Source of the DNA: an uncultured Desulfovibrionaceae bacterium
Lineage (GTDB): Bacteria; Desulfobacterota; Desulfovibrionia; Desulfovibrionales; Desulfovibrionaceae
Length of the DNA: 64,000 bases
Assembly: GCA_944325195.1 (NCBI GenBank)
Contig: CALUZB010000004.1
Span: 434,001 to 498,000 of the forward strand
Reading direction: 5' to 3'
In this document: positions 20,178 through 60,992 of the stretch, piece after piece
How the letters are laid out: each line of letters starts with the position of its first letter
How positions within the stretch are numbered: position 1 is the stretch's first letter
Program-made: the position numbers and the translations under genes
The notes under the pieces: model-generated
Told to the model about the DNA's origin: nothing
Databases searched by the model: none
What the model saw: only the letters and a program-made list of their open reading frames with translations

Positions 20178-21821
20178 ATGATTGAATCCCCCCAGAACCA
20201 CCCGACACCCGAGCAGATACGAGCTCAGCTTGCATGTATGCTGGACAGTGAAGATTTTGCTGTTCCTGAAAGGCTCAAGGCTTTTCTCTCATTTGTTGTG
20301 CAGGAAACGCTCGCCGGAAATGCAGCCAACATTAAAGCCTACACTATAGCGATAACCGCTTTCGGCAGACGGCATGATTTTGACCCGCAGCTTGACCCGA
20401 TTGTCAGAATTGAAGCGGGTAAATTGCGGAAGGCTCTGGAGTTGTACTTTTATACCCACCCTGAAGATGAGGTCGTAATTTTGATCCCCAAAGGCACATA
20501 TGTGCCGGTTTTCAGTTATGCCAAGCGCCATAGTGAACAGCCGAATCCGCCCTCGGCACAAACTCTCACCCCTCCATTAAGGGAGATGCAATTCAATACC
20601 AACGCGGCCCGCCCCGATGCTGCTTTGGAACGGGAGGAAAGGCCGACTTTAATGCTGCTTCCTTTCAGTATGCAGGGAGAAAATAAAGAATTAGCTGATT
20701 TCCTGGAGGGTTTGAATGATACCTTGTTCGCCCAAACCCAAGACAATGAACTTGTTCATGTTATGGAAATGCCTCAACGCGGGCTGAATATCAATCATAT
20801 AGATGTGGTCAGATTTGCCAAGGAGCAGGGCGTGCGTTTTGTGTTGCATGGTCAGGCTCAATCCAGTGCAAATCAAATCCGGTTATATGTTGCTTTGACC
20901 GATACCCAAAAAGGCTTCAGAATCTGGACTGAAAAATATGACTGCCAGTTTTATCCGGACACTTCCCTGAACCTGCAGGATCAAATCGCCCGAAATATTT
21001 TAATAACCATTTTGGATAGCGTAGGGGTCATTACCCGCACACTGGTCCAGGAGACAAGCTATTTACCACCCGATGAACTGGGAGTATTTGAATCGACTCT
21101 CCGGTATATGGAATGGGTTACATCGCTAGACAGGGACAATTACACCAAGGCGAAATACGCCCTGGAGTTGAATATGGTCAAAGATCCGCACAATCCGATC
21201 ATTCTTTCCCAATTGTCCGATATCTATTCTTCTGATTATCAATTTGCGTTCAATCAAATTGACAACAACCTGGATAGGGCACTTGAGCTGGCCAAACAGG
21301 CGTTGATGACTGACCCGAATTGCCACATGGCGAAACTGGCAAAAGGCCTGTACTTATATCTGGTCAGAGACAAGCAGCAATTGGAGCTTCTGCTCAAGGA
21401 TTTCCTCTGCCGGGGCAACGTCAAACCATATGCTCAAGGCTTTGTCGCTTTTCTTCTCGGCATGGCTGTGGATCTTACAGAGGGGAAAAAGCTTGCTGAA
21501 AGCGCAATAGGGCTTAATCCTTATCAACCCGGCTGCTACAATGTAGTGCCGTTCATATATCACTTCGTGAACAGAGACTACGATGAGGCATTGCACTACG
21601 CGCACCGGCTCAATATCCCTTCCTGCATCTGGGAATCAATGATTATGACCGCCGCCTATACAGCCACCGGGAACACATCTGAAGCGACCAGAGCATTAAA
21701 ACGCCTGCTTACCCTGGAACCGGACTTTAATCTTAAAAGAAAACAACTGTTGTATGGATTATTTTTCGACGATAAGAAAGCATCGCTGATTGACGATGCC
21801 CTGAAAAAGGCTGGATTATGA
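20178..21821 (+). CDS. TolB-like/TPR regulator-like protein, copy 1
   Basis: 547 aa, no signal peptide or membrane helix. Residues ~10-115 form a conserved block (IRAQLACMLDSEDF ... FLSFVV ... IKAYTIAI ... FDPQLDPIVRIEAGKLRKALE ... IPKGTYVPVF). This block is known from otherwise uncharacterised proteins that join it to TolB-N-like and TPR regions; a DNA-binding role is plausible but unproven. A TolB N-terminal-like alpha/beta domain follows (~155-290), then helical TPR-like repeats to the end. Divergent from amidinotransferase 1, with a paralogue at 26387 in the same arrangement. Probably a sensor or regulator of the neighbouring enzyme. Confidence 0.7.
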   Translation: MIESPQNHPTPEQIRAQLACMLDSEDFAVPERLKAFLSFVVQETLAGNAANIKAYTIAITAFGRRHDFDPQLDPIVRIEAGKLRKALELYFYTHPEDEVVILIPKGTYVPVFSYAKRHSEQPNPPSAQTLTPPLREMQFNTNAARPDAALEREERPTLMLLPFSMQGENKELADFLEGLNDTLFAQTQDNELVHVMEMPQRGLNINHIDVVRFAKEQGVRFVLHGQAQSSANQIRLYVALTDTQKGFRIWTEKYDCQFYPDTSLNLQDQIARNILITILDSVGVITRTLVQETSYLPPDELGVFESTLRYMEWVTSLDRDNYTKAKYALELNMVKDPHNPIILSQLSDIYSSDYQFAFNQIDNNLDRALELAKQALMTDPNCHMAKLAKGLYLYLVRDKQQLELLLKDFLCRGNVKPYAQGFVAFLLGMAVDLTEGKKLAESAIGLNPYQPGCYNVVPFIYHFVNRDYDEALHYAHRLNIPSCIWESMIMTAAYTATGNTSEATRALKRLLTLEPDFNLKRKQLLYGLFFDDKKASLIDDALKKAGL

Positions 21822-21934: not shown

Positions 21935-22888
21935 TTACTTCTGGAAACGCTGGCTTAAAATTACCGCGCCCAGAACCAGAGCGCAGGCAACCCATTGCAG
22001 GGGCAACATGCTTTCGCCCAACAGCAACATACTTAAAATTATCCCAAAAATCGGAATAAGGTTCAGAAACGATGAAAAGCGCGGCACAGGGATACGCGCC
22101 AGGGCATAAGCGGAACAACCCTGCGCGCCGACAGTTATGCAGATGCCCAGATATAAAACCGCAATAAAAGGCTCCCAGGCAAACCGGCTCGGCAGCTCAA
22201 CTGCATCCAAACCAAGCATGGGCAAAAAAATGGCGCTGGCAATCAAACTCTGGAACCAAAGTACCAAAGGGACAGGATAACGCCCACGTAAAAAACGTAA
22301 AATCACTACAAACCCGGCCCCGCCACACAACGAGCACACTTCAAAAATATTGCCCAGCACAGGATTTGGAGCAGACTCACTGACTCCGCCCGCTGCGGTG
22401 AGTAAAACCACTCCCCCCATAGCTGCAAGAAAACAAAGCAAAACCCCGGGAGTGGTCTTTTCCTTAAGAATCAGCCAGCCGGCCATCGTGCTGATAAGCG
22501 GATTCAATGCCCAAACCATACTGGCCTGAGAGGCGGAGGTATATTTCAAAGCCATTGCTTCAAAGGCGAAAAAGGTCACAGGATCGCACAAGCTGAGTAA
22601 AACCAGCAAGCCAAGATCTCGTCTGGAATAAATTTTGATAGGACAGAATGCAACTAAAATAAAAGGGGTCAACACTAAAGCGGCAAGCAGCATGCGCATA
22701 CAGACCAGAAACAGCGGGTGATATTCAGTTACCGCTATTTTCCCAACCGCCATGCCGCTGCCCCACAGCACGCAGCCTACTATCATTACTATAACAGCAA
22801 GCCTGGTTCCCTGCTCAGGACTGCCCGGAGCAGTTTGCACTGCTGCCCCCGGCAAAGCTGATGCTTCTTCTGAATAATTATTGTCCAT
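21935..22888 (-). CDS. EamA/DMT-family transporter
   Basis: 317 aa with about ten hydrophobic helices arranged as two EamA repeats (first from ~30, second from ~170). These proteins export or import small metabolites, often amino acids or their derivatives. I start it at 22888 (AGGAAG site); the longer frame from 22975 adds 29 residues without a ribosome site. It lies between the two amidinotransferase modules and 34-120 nt from the symporter gene on the same strand. It is a candidate exporter of a guanidino product or of ornithine, by context only. Confidence 0.85.
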   Translation of the reverse strand: MDNNYSEEASALPGAAVQTAPGSPEQGTRLAVIVMIVGCVLWGSGMAVGKIAVTEYHPLFLVCMRMLLAALVLTPFILVAFCPIKIYSRRDLGLLVLLSLCDPVTFFAFEAMALKYTSASQASMVWALNPLISTMAGWLILKEKTTPGVLLCFLAAMGGVVLLTAAGGVSESAPNPVLGNIFEVCSLCGGAGFVVILRFLRGRYPVPLVLWFQSLIASAIFLPMLGLDAVELPSRFAWEPFIAVLYLGICITVGAQGCSAYALARIPVPRFSSFLNLIPIFGIILSMLLLGESMLPLQWVACALVLGAVILSQRFQK

Positions 22889-23010
22889 AAATTCTTCCTT
22901 GAGTGATTTTTGAGCAATCTGTTCAATGGCGGGGGGAGATCGCTCTGCCGCCCCGCCTATCAATGTTCCTTGCACACTGCCGGATTAACGCAACCTTCTA
23001 CTATTCAGTA

Positions 23011-24536
23011 TCAGCCATGATTGGGAAGCGGCAGAGGCGGACAACTCTTTTGGGTAACTGCAGAAACCGCAACCGTTACAATCAAACAGATAAGTGGTGC
23101 TCCAAGAGTGAAATAATACCAATGCTCAGGGTACGCCAACGCCTGCAAGGTAAAGCTTCCGCCATCGACAGCTCCGCCGATCACCCGGAATGCCATTCCG
23201 GCAATCATCCCACATACGGCTCCGGTGCTGTTCGCTTTTTTCCAGAACAGGCCAAGAGTGACCGTGATGGACAGAGCCGCCAGCAGCAGGTCAAAGCCCA
23301 GGGCACACAACTCCATGGCATCAGGAAAGCTGATGGCAATCACCGTTCCGATAACCCCGATAATCAACACAACAATCCGGGTTACAAGCACCTGTTCCTT
23401 TTCACTTGCAGCGGGCTTGAAAATATCCCGGTAAATATTCATGGAAACAACTCCGGCGAGAGCCAGTGAAGCTGTGGCGGCCGCGGACATCACCGCAGAC
23501 ATGCCCGCCCCCAAAAAGAGAATGAGCAGGGGCAGCGGCAGAATGGTTTTACTCATCACCGGCAAAATCAGTTCAGGATCGCCGGCTATACCCGCAGCCT
23601 CATTGCCCAGCAGGTGAGGATCGTCAATCATGCCGTTGCCCACCATGATCACCCCGCACAAAGCGGCGATGGTTACCAACACTACAAAAATGAAAAACAC
23701 CGCCGCGGCACAGAAGGCCGAGGCCCGGGCTGTATTGGCGGTTTTGGCGGAAAAGGCGCGCTGCATCAGGTCTGGGCTGGCCACATTGCCCAGGGTCATG
23801 ACCGCAAGAGCCGCCAACCAGGCGATCCAGTGTACGCCGGGAGTGCCTTCAGCCGGGAAAATCCTAATCAGTTCCGGATCATAGCTCGCACAGAACGCTT
23901 CCCAGCCCCCTACAGCGCTGACGGCAAACGGCACCAGCGCCAGAAGACCGGCTAGAGTGATGGCCACCTGGATAATATCGGTAAAACATACGGCAAACAG
24001 CCCACCAAGCACAGTGTAGGAACAGATGACCACCATGCCCACAATAATGGAAGTCATAAGCTCCCAGCCGATCAGGGCATTAACAATTTTTCCGAATACC
24101 AGGATTTGCACGGAAACCCAGAGAATAAAGATAAAGGACATAAGAAGCGTGGCAGTAATGCCGGCTTTGCGCCCGAAACGGGTATAGAAAAAGTCCCCCA
24201 ATGAAATGAACTTACAGCGCCACATTCTGGCAAGATAGAAGCTGCCCGCAATAAGCAGACAGAGGAAGCCCCCCCCACGGTAATGAAGGCACCACCGCTC
24301 AGATAGGTATCGTCCCAGATACCGACTGAGTAAATCCGGCCGGGAACGGCAATGAGCAAAGCCCCACCGATAAAACAGGCCATCAGCGTGGCTGAGTTGA
24401 AAAACAAACCGAAACTGCGACCCGCAACCAGGTAATCTTCTGAAGTTTTAATTCTGTTTTTCACCAAATACCCCACGAGGATCATACACCCCATGTAAGC
24501 CGCTAACCCTAAGCCGTACAATAAATTTTGACTCAT
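23011..24536 (-). pseudogene. sodium:solute symporter interrupted at a G8 tract
   Basis: SSS-family transporter split in two frames. The first ~86 codons (MSQNLLYGLGLAAYMGCMIL ... DDTYLSGGAFITVG) run into a C8 tract at 24269-24276 (G8 on the coding strand). The remaining ~415 codons continue in another frame (GFLCLLIAGSFYLARMWR ...). One added G, or loss of two, restores a ~505-residue protein with the usual ~13 helices. It may be a phase-variable gene, a real inactivation or a sequence error. Neighbours suggest uptake of an amino acid, guanidino compound or osmolyte. Confidence 0.8.
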
Positions 24537-26386: not shown

Positions 26387-27982
26387 ATGGTGGGACGAAA
26401 CAAATCACCGGGCAATCTTCCTGAGAATATCTCACCGGAAGAAATCAGGGCACAACTGGAAGATATCCTTAAAAGCAAAGACTTTGTGGCTTCGCAAAGA
26501 CTTATGGACTTTCTGTCGTATGTGGTAGAACAGAGCCTGCAGGGCAACGGCGAAACCATTAAGGCATACAATATCGCTGTTGATGTTTTCGGGATGGGCA
26601 CAGAATTCGATCCCCTGATCAACCCGCTTGTGCGCACGGAAGCAGTCAGGCTGCGCAGCAAGCTTGAACATTATTACCTGTGCAATCCTACAGCCGCTAT
26701 CCAGATCAACATTCCAAAAGGCGGCTATGTCCCTATTTTCACCCGCCCTGCCGAAACGAGAGAAACCGTTCTTAAGGACGGGAACACGCTGGAGTTGCAT
26801 ACAATCATTCTTGTCTGCCCTTTTGAAAACATCAACTCAACTAGAGAGGGTGACAGCTTCAATTCCGGTTTAGTTAATGAAATCACCAACTTTCTTGCCA
26901 AATTCAGAAACCTGACGGTGATCGTGCAGGAGCCGGCTCATGACGCTGAATACCATGCCGGTACAGAGGCATCGTGCAATCCGTCGGCACGGTTTATCCT
27001 GAAAGGCAGTTTGCAGACGCACAAAAAGAAATTCAAACTATGGGTTCAGCTTATAGATTCTCAAAATAACAGGAAAATATGGGCGGAAAGCTTTAACGGC
27101 GATTTCAGACATGATGCCTTTGAAGCGCAGGAAATTATTGCTGAAAAAATCGTATATCAGATTGCAGCAAACTTCGGCATCATGGAGCAGATCTTGTTGA
27201 AGGAAGCTGACCATAGACGAATGCCCGGTCTTAAAAAAGCCCTGCTGCTTTATCATTGCTGGCTGAACAGACTTTTCGTCAGTGATTTTAAACAGGCGCT
27301 TATCGCATTGCAACAGACCCTGCAGAATGAGGGAGAGAACCCTTCCGTGCTTGGCATGTTGGCTGATTTGTATGCGACAAACTACCAACTCGGTTATGGA
27401 ATTGTTAAAAATGCCCTGGATCCGTCTTTACAAATGGCTATCAAGGCGGCCAATCTTGATCCGGAATGCCAGGTTGCCCACCGGGCCTTAGCATTCAACT
27501 ATTTTCTGAGGGGAGACAAAGCCAGGTTCTTAATCTTCGCTAAGCGCACTCTGGAAATCAACCCCATAAGCAGCGGTGCAATAACTAACCTGGCGTCGTG
27601 GTACGGCATGTTGGGATATTGGGATGAATGCCTGGAATTGAGCAAACGGGTGTTCCGGCTCAACCCCGCCTCACCCGGCTGGTGCCATGCAGCGTTGGCT
27701 TTCTACCATTATTACCGCGAAGATTATGAAAAGGCTTTGCTGATTGCCCAAAAAATCAATATGCCACAAATGTTCTGGGACCCTTTATTCAGGCTGATCG
27801 CCGCCGCACAGTTACGTAAAGTTGACGAATGCAAAGAAGCTTACTCCGGTTTGACTGAATTGTTCCCCAACTTTGAAAAAGATAAAAAACTGCTTATTTC
27901 CCGCTCAATTCCCAATCCGGAATATGCGGGCATTGTCAATAAAGGTCTGGATGTATATAAGTCTCTGATGGAGCATACCTGA
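26387..27982 (+). CDS. TolB-like/TPR regulator-like protein, copy 2
   Basis: 531 aa, same three-part plan as the protein at 20178. An N-terminal block (~17-115: IRAQLEDILKSKDF ... FLSYVV ... IKAYNIAV ... FDPLINPLVRTEAVRLRSKLE ... IPKGGYVPIF) is followed by a TolB-N-like domain (~140-275) and C-terminal TPR-like helices. No membrane anchor. GGGGGAAAAG precedes the ATG. Divergent from amidinotransferase 2 across 186 bp, repeating the copy 1 arrangement. The repeat of gene order implies duplication of the enzyme-regulator pair as a unit. Confidence 0.7.
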   Translation: MVGRNKSPGNLPENISPEEIRAQLEDILKSKDFVASQRLMDFLSYVVEQSLQGNGETIKAYNIAVDVFGMGTEFDPLINPLVRTEAVRLRSKLEHYYLCNPTAAIQINIPKGGYVPIFTRPAETRETVLKDGNTLELHTIILVCPFENINSTREGDSFNSGLVNEITNFLAKFRNLTVIVQEPAHDAEYHAGTEASCNPSARFILKGSLQTHKKKFKLWVQLIDSQNNRKIWAESFNGDFRHDAFEAQEIIAEKIVYQIAANFGIMEQILLKEADHRRMPGLKKALLLYHCWLNRLFVSDFKQALIALQQTLQNEGENPSVLGMLADLYATNYQLGYGIVKNALDPSLQMAIKAANLDPECQVAHRALAFNYFLRGDKARFLIFAKRTLEINPISSGAITNLASWYGMLGYWDECLELSKRVFRLNPASPGWCHAALAFYHYYREDYEKALLIAQKINMPQMFWDPLFRLIAAAQLRKVDECKEAYSGLTELFPNFEKDKKLLISRSIPNPEYAGIVNKGLDVYKSLMEHT

Positions 27983-54758: not shown

Positions 54759-55250
54759 ATGATTGCAAAAGAAGGTGATACTGTATTAGTACATTATACC
54801 GGAAAACTTGACAACGGAGAAGAATTTGACTCCTCACGCGGCCTTGAACCGTTGGAATTTACTATTGGTACAGGCACAGTTATTCCCGGTTTTGAAAAGG
54901 CCGTGACTGGTCTTGCAAAAGGCAACAGCATTACTGTGCGTATCGATGCGGTTGACGCATATGGTGAACACAGCGACGAATTGCTTATTGCAGTCCCCAA
55001 GTCTGATTTGCCGGACGATATAACCCCCGAGCAAGGTTTGCAGCTCATGCTTTATACTGATCAAGGGCCTATGGAAGTGGAGATAAGCGACATTAAAGAA
55101 GATGAAGTCATCCTTGACGCTAATCACCCTTTAGCCGGTGAGGCCCTGACTTTTGAAATTGAACTGGTGGATATCCTGGACGGCCCCACAGAGAGAAACG
55201 CTTGCACAGAAGGCGATTGTGGCTCCTGCGGCTGTGGCTGTTGCGATTGA
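54759..55250 (+). CDS. slyD: FKBP-type prolyl isomerase SlyD
   Basis: 163 aa. FKBP core (VLVHYTGKLDNGEEFDSS; IPGFEKAVTGLAKG) with the inserted IF chaperone flap (~68-125) and a Cys-rich metal-binding tail (CTEGDCGSCGCGCCD). Assists folding and, in relatives, delivers nickel for [NiFe] hydrogenase maturation. The tail is Cys-rich rather than His-rich. AAGGAG lies upstream of the ATG. Confidence 0.93.
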   Translation: MIAKEGDTVLVHYTGKLDNGEEFDSSRGLEPLEFTIGTGTVIPGFEKAVTGLAKGNSITVRIDAVDAYGEHSDELLIAVPKSDLPDDITPEQGLQLMLYTDQGPMEVEISDIKEDEVILDANHPLAGEALTFEIELVDILDGPTERNACTEGDCGSCGCGCCD

Positions 55251-55339
55251 TGCCTGAAACCGAACCGAACGCACATATAAGTGAAAATCTACATACTGTG
55301 GGACATATATTTGCAAACCGGCACAGGCTAGCGCAATGT

Positions 55340-56014
55340 TCAGATTGAAGCAAATCCCCCGTTATATAATAGCCTAGTGTATTTTGCGGTTCGCCGGGCG
55401 CACTCCAGATAGTGATCCCGGTGGGCCGTTTCTACTGCAACCGGATCTTTTGTTTTTATTGCTTCATATATTTTAAGGTGCCTGTCGAAAAGATTATCTG
55501 CACAGAACGTGTCTTCCCAAAAGGGTAAGAAAAAATGGTGGACAAATTTAGCCTGGTTTTTTCTGGCGAATGAAACTAAAAACTGATTGTCACATGTTGA
55601 AATCAGCAGATCGTGAAACTTAAAATCCAATTCACTCAGCCTGTTCAGATCAAGCGGTTGCTTTTGAAACTCAGCCATTTTATCCAGAACTGCCTCTATT
55701 TTTAAGAAATCATTTTTGGTGAATAAAGGCAGAGACGTACCGACAATATAGCCTTCCATCACGCCGCAGATGGCATAGTCTGCCAAAATCTCCTCGACAG
55801 AGGGTTTTATTACTGAGGCCCCTTTATTATCTTCAAAATGCAGCAACCCATCCCTGCTCAAAACTAGCAAAGCTTCCCGAATGGGAATATGGGAAAAACC
55901 GATTTCCGCTGCTATATACTCCTCTTTAACACGTTCTCCCGCTTTTAGCTCTCCAGCCAGAATTTTTGTTTTGATAAAATCAATGACTTGCTGCCGGTAT
56001 GTTCCCCTACGCAT
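55340..56014 (-). CDS. GntR/FCD-family transcriptional regulator
   Basis: 224 aa. Winged HTH at ~5-70 (VIDFIKTKILAGELKAGERVKEEYIAAEIGFSHIPIREALLVL, split here only for recognition) followed by an FCD-type ligand domain with metal-binding His/Asp residues (DFKFHDLLI, HLKIYEAI, HRDHYLEC). ATG at 56014 is preferred over a GTG at 56029 because GGGGGA lies 8 nt upstream. Divergent from amidinotransferase 3 across ~290 A+T-rich bases, so it is a likely regulator of that gene and the antiporter. Confidence 0.87.
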   Translation of the reverse strand: MRRGTYRQQVIDFIKTKILAGELKAGERVKEEYIAAEIGFSHIPIREALLVLSRDGLLHFEDNKGASVIKPSVEEILADYAICGVMEGYIVGTSLPLFTKNDFLKIEAVLDKMAEFQKQPLDLNRLSELDFKFHDLLISTCDNQFLVSFARKNQAKFVHHFFLPFWEDTFCADNLFDRHLKIYEAIKTKDPVAVETAHRDHYLECARRTAKYTRLLYNGGFASI

Positions 56015-56303
56015 AGCGTTATCCCCCACACCTGCTTACCTGCATTCCCGCTTTGGTCATCCAGCTATTTCTTTTAATCTTCAGGTTAAATGTACTTAAT
56101 TACTAGTTCAATCTTATTAACTAATAACTCAATAAATTCTTAGTGTAAACTACATACCATATAATCATACACAATTTATATATAAAACTATGCAGATTAT
56201 ACATCTGAAACAAATAGATTTCAGATGAAAAAATGCTATTGTTAAGCTGAATCGACTAATAAATATATTTTTTTCATCACAGTTAAATCCAAGGAGTAAA
56301 AAT

Positions 56304-57450
56304 ATGGCTAGAATCGTTAACAGCTGGAATGAGTGGGATCCTTTGAAGAGAGTGATACTGGGCAGCCCCGTGGGAACCTGCAACCCCAAACCGGATCTTT
56401 CATGGAATAACACTACGAAAACATATCCTGACTATTTTGGCCCTCTTCCCCAGGAAATGCAGGATATTGCTGTGGATGAGATGAATGCGTTTCAGAATGC
56501 AATGGAAAAGAGAGGAATTAAGGTTGATCGGCCGAAGGTTATCAATACCTTACAGCGTACCTCCACTCCTGACTGGGAATGTGAATTCATGAGGGGCTGC
56601 CAACCGCCCAGAGACGTCTTTTTGTGTGTCGGGAATGTTATTCTGGAATCGCCGATGGCACTGCGCTCTCGCTGGTATGAATATCTTCATTTCCGGGACA
56701 TTCTGGAAGAGTATTTCCGTGAAGACCCGGATTTCATGTGGATCTCAGCGCCCCGCCCCAGACTGTCGGATGCCTCTTTCAAACAGGGTTTTTGGGAAAG
56801 TTTCTATAATATCTGGACTGAGGAGGACAAGCAGCAGCGCGCTTTAGCCCAGAACTGGCATTTGACCGAAAAAGAACCACTGTTTGACGCCGCAGATGGT
56901 TTGCGATTCGGAAAAGATATTTTCTGGCAGCCTTCCGTCGTAACCAACAAATCCGGTTTTGACTGGATAACCCGCTATCTCCGCAGCCTAGGATTCAGGG
57001 TGCATGAGGCCCGTTTCCAAGAAAAAAGGCGGAATGCCCTGGCATCTGGACGGCTTACTCATGCCGTTGCGCCCCGGCTTATGTATGTATTGCCCCGATG
57101 ACCCGTTCCTGGTTCCGAATATGGCGGAATTATTCAGAATCAATAGTTGGGAGTTAGTGCCCGCCGCCAGACCCGTATATGATGTCAACATCACCATTGG
57201 GGCGCTGGGGGAACGCCACGGTCCAAGCTGGCTTTCCGCCAATACGCTTTCTTTAGACCCGAAGACAATCTGCGTTGAATTTAACGAAACCGGCTACATG
57301 GAACAGCTTAACAGTTTAGGTTTTGAAGTCATTCCCCTGCATTATGCTTCCACCTTGGCTTTTGGCGGTTCGTTCCATTGCTCCACGGTTGATGTGCATC
57401 GTGAAGGCGTCTGTGAAGACTACTTCCCCAACCAGATTCCCGGCTATTAA
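56304..57450 (+). pseudogene. glycine amidinotransferase-like enzyme, copy 3, frameshifted
   Basis: Two overlapping frames together encode a 381-residue paralogue of the enzymes at 18615 and 25019. The first frame runs to 57101. The second carries on from an A6 tract at 57022-57027; dropping one A joins EARFQEK to GGMPWHLDG. The joined protein keeps Asp195 (FDAAD), His247 (PWHLDG) and Cys359 (GGSFHCSTVD). The break falls just before the catalytic His, so the unshifted product cannot work. It may be a pseudogene, a slippage-dependent gene or a sequence error. AAGGAG lies upstream of the start. Confidence 0.85.
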
Positions 57451-57611
57451 ACAAGTTGGAAGGGAATCCATGTCCGAATTGCGACATTTTACGCGATTGA
57501 GAACATTGCTTGGCGGGGAAAACCCGTCAGGCAATAATCTCACGTGTATTGTAAAGCGTTATTCAACGCCTGAGTGTTTTATCTAAAAGGAATTATTTTG
57601 AAAGGTGAGTT

Positions 57612-59039
57612 ATGGATAAAACTCCTTCTAAAAAAGTGGTATTACCGCTTTATATGTTGGTTTGTCTGGTGGTTAGCAGCGTAATCGGCGGGGGGATATA
57701 CGCCTTGCCCCAAAATATGGCCTTGGTCTCCGGAGGGGCCGGAATGCTCATATCATGGCTCATCACCGGTGTCGGGATGACCTTTCTGGCGGTTACGTTT
57801 CTCAAGCTGAGCGTTCGCAGGCCCGACGTCGATACCGGAATGTACGGCTACGTTCAAATGGCGTTCGGAGACTACCCCGCGTTTTTCACCCTGTGGGGAC
57901 TGTGGAATCTCTACTGGATAGCCAACGCCGGCCTGATAGTGCTGATTTTCAGTGCTCTTGGAGAATTACCCGGTATGGAGATGTTCAAGGACGGCCTCAC
58001 CACGGAGGCGATTATCGGCGAGGTGATCGTGGCCTTTCTCCTGGCGGCGCTCTTTGAGGCCGGGTTCAAGACGGCGGCCATATTCAACGCCGTGATGACC
58101 GTGATTAAAATTCTGCCTCTGCTCCTGTTCGCGATTTTCGCCGCTCTGGCATTTCAGGCGGACACCTTCAGTTTTGAATTCTACGGCAGTGTGGAGCTTG
58201 GCTCCACGCTGGATCAGGTAACAAACTGCATGCTTTACACCGCCTGGCTCTACACGGGATTTGACGCGGCAATCACCTTCGGCTCGCGGGGAGAAAGCCC
58301 CCGTGAAAGCGGAAAGGCTACGGTTATCGGATTCATTCTAATCACGGCAATTTATATCGCGACCTGCGTTCTCGCCTTCGGTGTGGTGCCCAGGGACGAG
58401 CTGGCCCGGATGAGCAATCCATCCATGGCGGGAATTATGCGGGCGGCAGCGGGGCCGTGGGCAAGCAATTTCATCAATATCGCGATGATAATTTCGGTAT
58501 TTGGCTGCCTGTTTGCATGCACCATGACAATGTCCGAATACCTATATAATATGGGGCGCGGCGACAGGCCTACCGGACCGCGCGTTTTTTCAAAACTAAG
58601 CTCCCGCGCCGTACCCTCGGCGTCTCTGTGGCTGGCAACTGTGCTTACCGCTGCGATTCTGATATATTCGGGCGTTACCGGAGCGGGATATAACGAACTT
58701 ATTCTGCTGTGTACGTCCTTGGCGCTTATCCCTTATTTTCTTTCTTCCCTGGCAGCCGTTAAAGACAGCATGGCGGACGGGAAGATTCTGCCGGGCTGGT
58801 TCTGTATCGCGACTGTGGCGGCCATATACTCGCTGTGGCTGATTTATGCCGGGGGGCTCAAATATCTGCTGTTGTCGGCCATTCCTTACAGTGTCGGCAT
58901 CTTCTTCTTCGCATACTCACGCAAGGAGCGGGGTTTGAAAGTATTCATGAATAAAAAGGAAGCGCTTGTCGCCTGCCTGATTATCGCCGCGGCCGTATTC
59001 GCCGGGTGCCAGATGGCTGCCGGCAGACTGACCTTATAG
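57612..59039 (+). CDS. APC-family basic amino acid antiporter (ArcD-like)
   Basis: 475 aa with ~12-13 hydrophobic helices. The opening LVVSSVIGGGIYALPQNMA and the TGFDAAITFGSRG block match arginine/ornithine or lysine antiporters of the APA branch. AAAGGTG precedes the ATG. It lies 161 nt after amidinotransferase 3 on the same strand. An arginine-in/ornithine-out exchange would match the substrate and by-product of an amidinotransferase. Parts of the gene (about 57900-58200) are visibly richer in G+C third positions than the neighbours, hinting at separate acquisition. Confidence 0.85.
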   Translation: MDKTPSKKVVLPLYMLVCLVVSSVIGGGIYALPQNMALVSGGAGMLISWLITGVGMTFLAVTFLKLSVRRPDVDTGMYGYVQMAFGDYPAFFTLWGLWNLYWIANAGLIVLIFSALGELPGMEMFKDGLTTEAIIGEVIVAFLLAALFEAGFKTAAIFNAVMTVIKILPLLLFAIFAALAFQADTFSFEFYGSVELGSTLDQVTNCMLYTAWLYTGFDAAITFGSRGESPRESGKATVIGFILITAIYIATCVLAFGVVPRDELARMSNPSMAGIMRAAAGPWASNFINIAMIISVFGCLFACTMTMSEYLYNMGRGDRPTGPRVFSKLSSRAVPSASLWLATVLTAAILIYSGVTGAGYNELILLCTSLALIPYFLSSLAAVKDSMADGKILPGWFCIATVAAIYSLWLIYAGGLKYLLLSAIPYSVGIFFFAYSRKERGLKVFMNKKEALVACLIIAAAVFAGCQMAAGRLTL

Positions 59040-59169
59040 ACAGGAGAATTGGGGCGACAACGGCAATGCTGAGAAGGAAGTCAACCGGCCGCGATATCTG
59101 GAAATTATTGCTTCAAAACAGATTTAACTTGACAAACTGAGCACTTGCATTTAAAAGAACAATTCATGT

Positions 59170-59244
59170 TGGGCTGTCGTTCAATTGGCAGGACTGCGGA
59201 TTCTGGCTCCGCCAATCTAGGTTCAAATCCTGGCAGCCCAGCCA
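59170..59244 (+). tRNA. tRNA-Gln(CTG)
   Basis: Acceptor TGGGCTG/CAGCCCA, anticodon arm GCGGA-TTCTGGC-TCCGC (anticodon CTG), T-loop TTCAAAT, encoded CCA. First of a Gln-Glu pair. Confidence 0.93.
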
Positions 59245-60060: not shown

Positions 60061-60992
60061 CTAATAGTGTAAAACACACTGCCTAACCAGTATCCTGAAG
60101 GCTTCATTTTCATCACGATGATTCTGCCTGAAACAGAATTCATTCACATACATCTGCAAGTATTTCACAGATACGTGGTGATAGATGCCGTAGATTCCAC
60201 GCTTTAGTAATGCCCAGAAACTCTCAATCCCATTGGTGTGAACGCCATTGCCGGCGGAGAATTGACCGATGGAATGATTCACGGTAAACCGAATGAACTT
60301 CTTGTCATTGGTTTTATTCAGAAAATTGTAACCTCTGAAATCATCCGTCATAACCACAGTTCCCTCTCAACACACTTTCTCAAGTATTTTGAAGAGTTGC
60401 TTTCCAGTCAACCTCTGCCCTGCTTGATTGGGCAGTGCTACTCGTGCGTATACTTTACTTAAGCTTCTTTCTTTGATTCCGACGACAGGGGTTTTAGATG
60501 TTCCTCTCTCTCGCTTATTCGGGGTTTGGGGATTCTGGTCGTCATCGTCCTTCTTACTCTTTCTCCGAGGCTTGCCGCCTACATAAGTTTCATCAATTTC
60601 AACGATGGCTTCAAAGAGTTCCCTGTCTTGTTCGTTGCTCATAGCCTGACGAATCTTGTGCATCATACGCCAGGCAGTCTTGTAAGTGACCCCAATTTCT
60701 CGTTTCAACTTTAGAGCAGAGATTCTTTCTTGGCATTGAGAAATAGGTGGATGGCGTAAAACCATTTCCGCAAATCATTATCTGACTTCTCGAATATGGT
60801 GCCCTTGGAAATGGAAAAAGTGTTCTTACATGCGGAGCAGTTGAACACTTTTGGCTTGTCGGCACGGTTCAAGTGGTTGATTACCGAACCACAATGAGGG
60901 CAATGTACGGTTTCTCCATACCGTACCTTGATGAAATAATTGATGATTGATTTTTCATCTGGAAAATTCTGTAAGAAATCAAGGAATGTCAT
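60061..60992 (-). pseudogene. IS1595-family transposase, degenerate
   Basis: The N-terminal part (start 60992) has the zinc ribbon CPHCGSVINHL ... CSACKNTFSISKGTIFE. Near 60724 a one-base loss shifts the frame, where AAGAAAGAATC would need an extra G to give AKKGISALKLK. The DDE part follows with EIDETYVGG, and an in-frame TGA (60367-60369) interrupts it before MTDDFRGY and NGIESFWALLKRGIYGIYHH. All blocks of the family are present but two lesions make it inactive. Terminal inverted repeats were not identified with confidence. Confidence 0.88.

Follow-up and report, generated by a model that had tools for sequence, protein, structure and literature searches.

The amidinotransferase (AMT) copy 3, with the regulator and the antiporter beside it, most likely forms an accessory cassette that is specific to the species and belongs to an expanded AMT family. 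The window, the whole 64,000-nucleotide stretch of DNA analysed, holds three members of this family. The expansion is genus-specific and comprises about 17 different copies. We assign a probability of roughly 0.5 to the reading that copy 3 is an accessory cassette in a family whose members each handle a different gut guanidino compound, usually with their own transporter and regulator. A sequence-only reading had proposed arginine import and ornithine export for all three window copies. That account was attractive but is unsupported, and the analysis below corrects it.

Content and integrity of the copy-3 cassette

The GntR regulator, amidinotransferase-like gene and antiporter described from the sequence alone are all present at the locus as judged by Pfam, TIGR00905 and the open reading frames (ORFs), and their assignment to the amidinotransferase family and the antiporter superfamily was borne out. 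The GntR/FCD regulator is transcribed divergently from copy 3 and has a low GC content (42.6%). Within the window genome (G000), copy 3 is the only AMT with an adjacent GntR gene and the only one with an antiporter directly behind it. No homologue of the regulator was found in any AMT locus retrieved. Scans for promoters and terminators gave no excess over shuffled sequences. At 60061-60992 of the window, 1 kb from the cassette, are fragments that by eye resemble a broken IS1595-type transposase.

Table 1. Features of the three AMT loci in the window
Feature	Position	Strand	Remarks
AMT copy 1, intact, 384 aa	18615-19769	-	Related to Dehalococcoidia and Desulfobacterales operon copies
TPR-type regulator divergent from copy 1	20178-21821	+	Homology to copy 2 regulator
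EamA/DMT transporter, copy 2 group	21935-22975	-	
SSS sodium symporter of copy 2	23011-24536	-	Frameshifted
AMT copy 2, intact, 393 aa	25019-26200	-	
TPR-type regulator of copy 2	26387-27982	+	
FKBP-type gene	54759-55250		Flanks cassette 3
Whole copy-3 cassette, 3.9 kb	55263-59127		Between FKBP-type gene and tRNA-Gln/tRNA-Glu pair
GntR/FCD-family regulator	55340-56029	-	Pfam PF00392 GntR 2e-13, PF07729 FCD 1e-13
AGAT-superfamily AMT copy 3	56304-57450	+	Two ORFs, frameshift between
AMT copy 3, 5' part, 265 aa ORF	56304-57101	+	Asp170 and Asp254 equivalents
AMT copy 3, 3' part, +1 frame	57004-57450	+	Coding from ~57028; His303, Asp305 and Cys407 equivalents
A6 run, site of frame switch in copy 3	57022-57027	+	Parts join in-frame only across the run
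APC-superfamily antiporter, 475 residues, TIGR00905-type	57612-59039	+	Basic amino acid/polyamine antiporter superfamily
tRNA-Gln	59170-59244		Flanks cassette 3

In the sister species (G001, the only other genome of the genus), a gap of 197 bp separates the FKBP-type gene (contig C53, 8038-7520) from the same tRNA pair (7322-7073). Cassette 3 is missing at the syntenic site, and the AMT-antiporter pair, whose lack in relatives had been named beforehand as counting against the arginine proposal, is lacking there. The cassette was therefore either gained in one lineage or lost in the other. No duplication or insertion repeats bounding it were found.

Copy 3 is not one ORF. Its first ORF stops at 57101 and the last third of the gene is in the +1 frame, the switch occurring in the A6 run of GAAAAAAGG. 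The codons equivalent to Asp170 (56613) and Asp254 (56886) lie in the first frame, and those equivalent to His303 (57043), Asp305 (57049) and Cys407 (57379) in the second. As assembled, copy 3 gives no full enzyme unless the ribosome or the polymerase slips at the A6 run, and, barring a sequencing error at the frameshift, it is probably inactive. Two forms of ribosomal slippage were set aside. For programmed -1 frameshifting, the slippery AAAAAAG lies in the wrong phase. A +1 slip could occur at AAA-AGG (AGG is used 3.9 times per 1000 codons) but is without support. When copy 3 is read across the shift, it differs at 4/69 positions that are invariant in the other 15 copies. Intact paralogues, tested at the same 69 positions, show 0-5 departures, so copy 3 is either recently broken or only apparently broken.

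Other cassette genes are broken at homopolymers as well, namely the SSS symporter of copy 2 at a C8 run (24269-24276, + strand) and a regulator in locus L041 at an A7 run. An aldo/keto-reductase-like gene outside the cassettes (L037) likewise appears split by eye. These cases make an assembly error possible for copy 3. The sister-species orthologue of the copy 2 symporter is unbroken across the available part, and the C8 break may possibly reflect phase variation or sequencing error. In the sister species, one AMT copy (L015, contig C276) has an in-frame stop at codon 131.

An expanded amidinotransferase family

Copy 1 matched the human AGAT structure (PDB 1jdw) at 1.5e-50 over residues 5-377, and homology to AGAT extends to copy 3 through its two halves, which are 48% (1-243) and 43% (244-384) identical to copy 1. 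The matches of copy 1 to human AGAT structures at 1e-50, together with these identities, exclude a chance resemblance. Pfam and NCBIfam gave no AMT match at the thresholds used, so the AMT identity rests on the PDB sequence search.

The sequence-only reading counted copy 3 as the third paralogue of three. The 2.48-Mb window genome, searched with copy 1, instead yielded 15 intact paralogues, together with the two pieces of copy 3 and two fragments at contig edges, and the sister species has ~17 matches. The AMT family was found in 0/37 further genomes from the same bacterial family and order, and in 5/394 other genomes sampled from the phylum, with 1 to 3 matches each when at most four candidates per genome were scored. 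Ten copies of the window genome have an orthologue in the sister species at ≥90% (rounded). dN/dS was 0.008-0.024 in 6/8 ortholog pairs tested, dS being saturated in the other 2, and the shared copies are under strong purifying selection. Copy 3 has no orthologue in the sister species, where its best match is 56%. Its nearest paralogue is also only 56% identical, and in the AMT tree it occupies a separate, deep sub-clade as sister to C3_23k (100/99), a copy with an adjoining regulator and no transporter beside it. The three window copies are therefore not recent duplicates. In the same tree 14/16 copies form one clade with enzymes of Dehalococcoidia, Desulfobacterales, Acidobacteriota and Aminicenantes (100/100), and the remaining two, C4_285k and C21_48k, group with enzymes of the AGAT type from Actinomyces and Pelagibacteraceae.

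The expectation that these enzymes go with dedicated transport held up. For at least 11/16 full-length copies in the window genome, the gene group includes a transporter, and Dehalococcoidia repeatedly show an AMT paired with a sodium symporter. A single antiporter logic for the window copies was not supported, since copy 2 is accompanied by an SSS symporter and an EamA transporter and copy 1 has no adjacent transporter, as is also the case for C3_23k and C3_97k. Besides copy 2, SSS symporters accompany AMTs at six loci (L031, L032, L034, L035, L036 and L041) and EamA transporters at four (L034, L035, L036 and L038). Two AMT-adjacent MFS genes are present in L037, and a YkvI-like protein, recognized by eye and without a Pfam match, adjoins the AMT of L040. 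A creatininase-family gene occurs with an AMT in two unrelated lineages, at L038 (9043-9786) in the window genome and at L049 (1727-2506). TPR-type regulators of ~530-600 aa, without a Pfam match in the one member tested, are found at 13 loci of the window genome, 12/13 of them beside an AMT.

In bacteria, amidinotransferases have mainly been described as single genes of biosynthesis, and SxtG, HsvA and StrB1 are single genes in biosynthetic clusters. These three enzymes (PDB 6u1r, 5wpi and 1bwd) belong to the same superfamily as the AMTs of the window genome. There, in contrast, the genes are present in many copies alongside transporters, and a biosynthetic cluster is lacking. Literature searches on amidinotransferases in connection with Desulfovibrionaceae, and on transamidination as a catabolic route in the gut, returned nothing relevant.

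Substrate pocket and antiporter

The catalytic triad of AGAT consists of Asp254, His303 and Cys407 (PMC3684758). Asp170, Asp254, His303, Asp305 and Cys407 are kept in all full-length copies. The sequence-only reading described the Asp, His and Cys as directly seen in all three window copies; the residues are indeed present, although those of copy 3 can be read only across the frameshift. The expanded clade differs from AGAT/GATM in its pocket. R322, S354 and S355 lie on the arginine carboxylate side of the AGAT structure. C4_285k, C21_48k and the actinomycete enzymes linked to arginine deiminase (ADI) keep all three. The other 14 copies, 3 in the window and 11 elsewhere, have lost the set. In most of these, 5-10 extra residues precede the S354 region, which makes the alignment there uncertain. 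The three window copies also have W at position 302 (PWHID, where AGAT has PMHID). SxtG is an arginine-using enzyme and likewise lacks R322 in the alignment, so we did not take loss of R322 alone as proof against arginine. The pocket changes are suggestive evidence against arginine as the donor, and the loss of the arginine-side residues in 14 copies would count against ornithine as the obvious acceptor too.

The window antiporter resembles ArcD in its membership of the TIGR00905 superfamily, its length and its TM1 GGG motif. Its scores are below the cut-offs, at 384 against 409 for TIGR00905 and 383 bits against the equivalog cut-off of 591 for TIGR03810, the arginine-ornithine antiporter. 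The closest sequence found is a Pseudomonas aeruginosa antiporter adjoining ddaH (L165, 42.5% over 99%). It too is located beside a guanidino-modifying enzyme, but the partner is a dimethylargininase and not an AMT. Phylogenetic placement, proposed earlier as a check on the arginine account, went against it. In a tree of 23 sequences the window antiporter lies outside the arcA-linked clades, in a clade with the ddaH-linked P. aeruginosa protein and a second AMT-linked antiporter of the genus (99/99), which is located ~4 kb from an AMT pair in L032; the window branch is long and its exact sister is unsure. A constraint grouping the window antiporter with the ArcD proteins of Shinella and Staphylococcus, whose genes adjoin arcA, was rejected (p-AU 0.0003).

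In AdiC, W293 provides arginine stacking and E208 provides proton coupling. The window antiporter has Cys (58518) and Asp (58263) at these positions, whereas both residues are kept in all other antiporters compared, the ddaH-linked one included. The two substitutions point to a changed substrate or mechanism, and not to arginine/ornithine exchange. No relative of the antiporter was found at 1e-75 among 394 other genomes of the phylum. Its GC3 (66%) is above that of all 27 background genes (42.7-62.2%), which is no more than suggestive of a foreign origin.

Proposed guanidino catabolism and alternative readings

Gene neighbourhoods outside the genus connect AMTs with carbamoyl phosphate metabolism. 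Three Dehalococcoidia loci (L045, L046 and L051) have the order COG2403-like GTPase, AMT, SSS symporter and carbamate kinase, with an ArcB-type carbamoyltransferase as well in L051, and a Desulfobacterales locus (L044) contains carbamoyltransferase, carbamate kinase, GTPase and AMT. The COG2403 label and some of the neighbour names were assigned by eye. Among 87 outside AMT loci, the GTPase was found in 10, carbamate kinase in 9 and ADI in 5; the GTPase and ADI were together in 0/10 GTPase loci. Five actinomycete loci combine AMT, ADI, ornithine carbamoyltransferase (OTC) and carbamate kinase.

In the window genome, carbamate kinase and the COG2403-like GTPase are side by side on contig C17 (L154, 4825-12142). 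Genes for a putative lipoprotein and an argB-like kinase come next, and an ArcB-type carbamoyltransferase follows at a distance of 4 kb. This OTC is 55-65% identical to arcB and AMT-linked enzymes versus 37% to the anabolic enzyme of two relatives. Among 39 relatives, only the window genome exceeded the carbamate kinase cut-off. Carbamate kinase was not found in the sister species, whose assembly is fragmented and 91% complete. No ADI was detected in either genome at E 0.001, and the arginine deiminase pathway of the window genome is thus incomplete, with OTC and carbamate kinase present on C17.

A catabolic model is the best-supported reading of these gene neighbourhoods. A guanidino compound would be imported by the cassette transporter, and the active-site Cys would take its amidino group in a ping-pong reaction, as in AGAT, and pass it to an amine. 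The group would end as carbamoyl phosphate and ATP via carbamoyltransferase and carbamate kinase. Diverse plug-in cassettes could in this way feed a shared route ending in the catabolic OTC and carbamate kinase, and the antiporter of cassette 3 may take up the guanidino substrate while releasing the product that is left once the amidino group has been removed. We suggest more tentatively that the genus lives partly on guanidino compounds, with ~17 AMTs, most of them with an importer and a TPR-type regulator, feeding the COG2403-like GTPase, the ArcB-type carbamoyltransferase and carbamate kinase and yielding ATP without ADI by an undescribed route. The creatininase-family gene beside a G000 AMT and the ddaH-linked placement of the antiporter count in favour of guanidino compounds. 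The lack of ADI in both genomes counts against the catabolic model, since the guanidino-to-ureido step is missing, as does the carbamate kinase not found in the sister species. The copies without an adjacent transporter count against a transporter for each member, and EamA proteins are often exporters, which counts against the import reading.

Actinomycetes offer a comparison. In Actinobaculum massiliense, AGAT was abundant on urinary catheters together with ArcA, ArcB and ArcC, and a polyketide was suspected by the authors (PMC6314084). Use of a guanidino compound would be an alternative reading, and the expression of AGAT with ArcABC would then be an independent case for the catabolic model. 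The Actinomyces/Actinobaculum clusters (L100, L107) resemble the compared loci in having the AMT beside carbamate kinase and a catabolic OTC. They differ in including ADI and in having one AMT per locus, versus a family of 17 here, and the AGAT-type enzyme of L100 and L107 keeps R322, S354 and S355, unlike the expanded clade.

Two other accounts of the family were weighed, and we consider both unlikely. If the AMTs were arginine-dependent enzymes that make guanidino products from amines and are fed by an ArcD-like arginine/ornithine antiporter, the AGAT-superfamily fold with its catalytic set, the TIGR00905 membership of the antiporter, and the two copies with an intact arginine-side set and actinomycete AGAT-type relatives would be expected, and the SxtG case softens the residue argument. 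This account is opposed by the altered pockets of the three window copies, by the antiporter's scores, clade and key residues, and by the presence of one such antiporter against 15 other copies with different transporters or none. Alternatively, the expanded clade could consist of deiminases or hydrolases of substituted guanidines within the same Cys superfamily, whose ureido products would yield ATP via the ArcB-type carbamoyltransferase and carbamate kinase. Such an activity would explain the missing ADI. It agrees with the occurrence of OTC and carbamate kinase without ADI in the window genome and in the Dehalococcoidia and Desulfobacterales AMT loci, with the separation of ADI from the COG2403-like gene, and with the loss of arginine/ornithine-side residues, but the closest solved relatives are all amidinotransferases, and the clade retains Asp305 along with the overall AGAT framework.

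Copy 3 taken by itself raises a serious possibility that is compatible with any of these family-level readings, namely that it is a decaying pseudogene beside a neofunctionalised or decaying antiporter and has no present function. The frameshift, the cassette's absence from the sister species, the long branch and lost invariant residues of the antiporter, and the homopolymer frameshifts in other cassette genes all agree with decay. Against it, the changes at otherwise invariant positions are within the intact-paralogue range, the antiporter and regulator ORFs are intact, and a one-base sequencing error at the A6 run would look identical.

Guanidino compounds in the gut are important to the nitrogen and creatine balance of the host. 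A genus-level AMT expansion with dedicated transporters and carbamate kinase links would suggest that a gut route for creatine, guanidinoacetate or similar compounds has been overlooked, and the family provides ready natural variants for learning what determines substrate choice. AMT homologues are also present on contigs catalogued as viral, with 40% (L124) and 26-28% (L125-L130) identity to copy 1.
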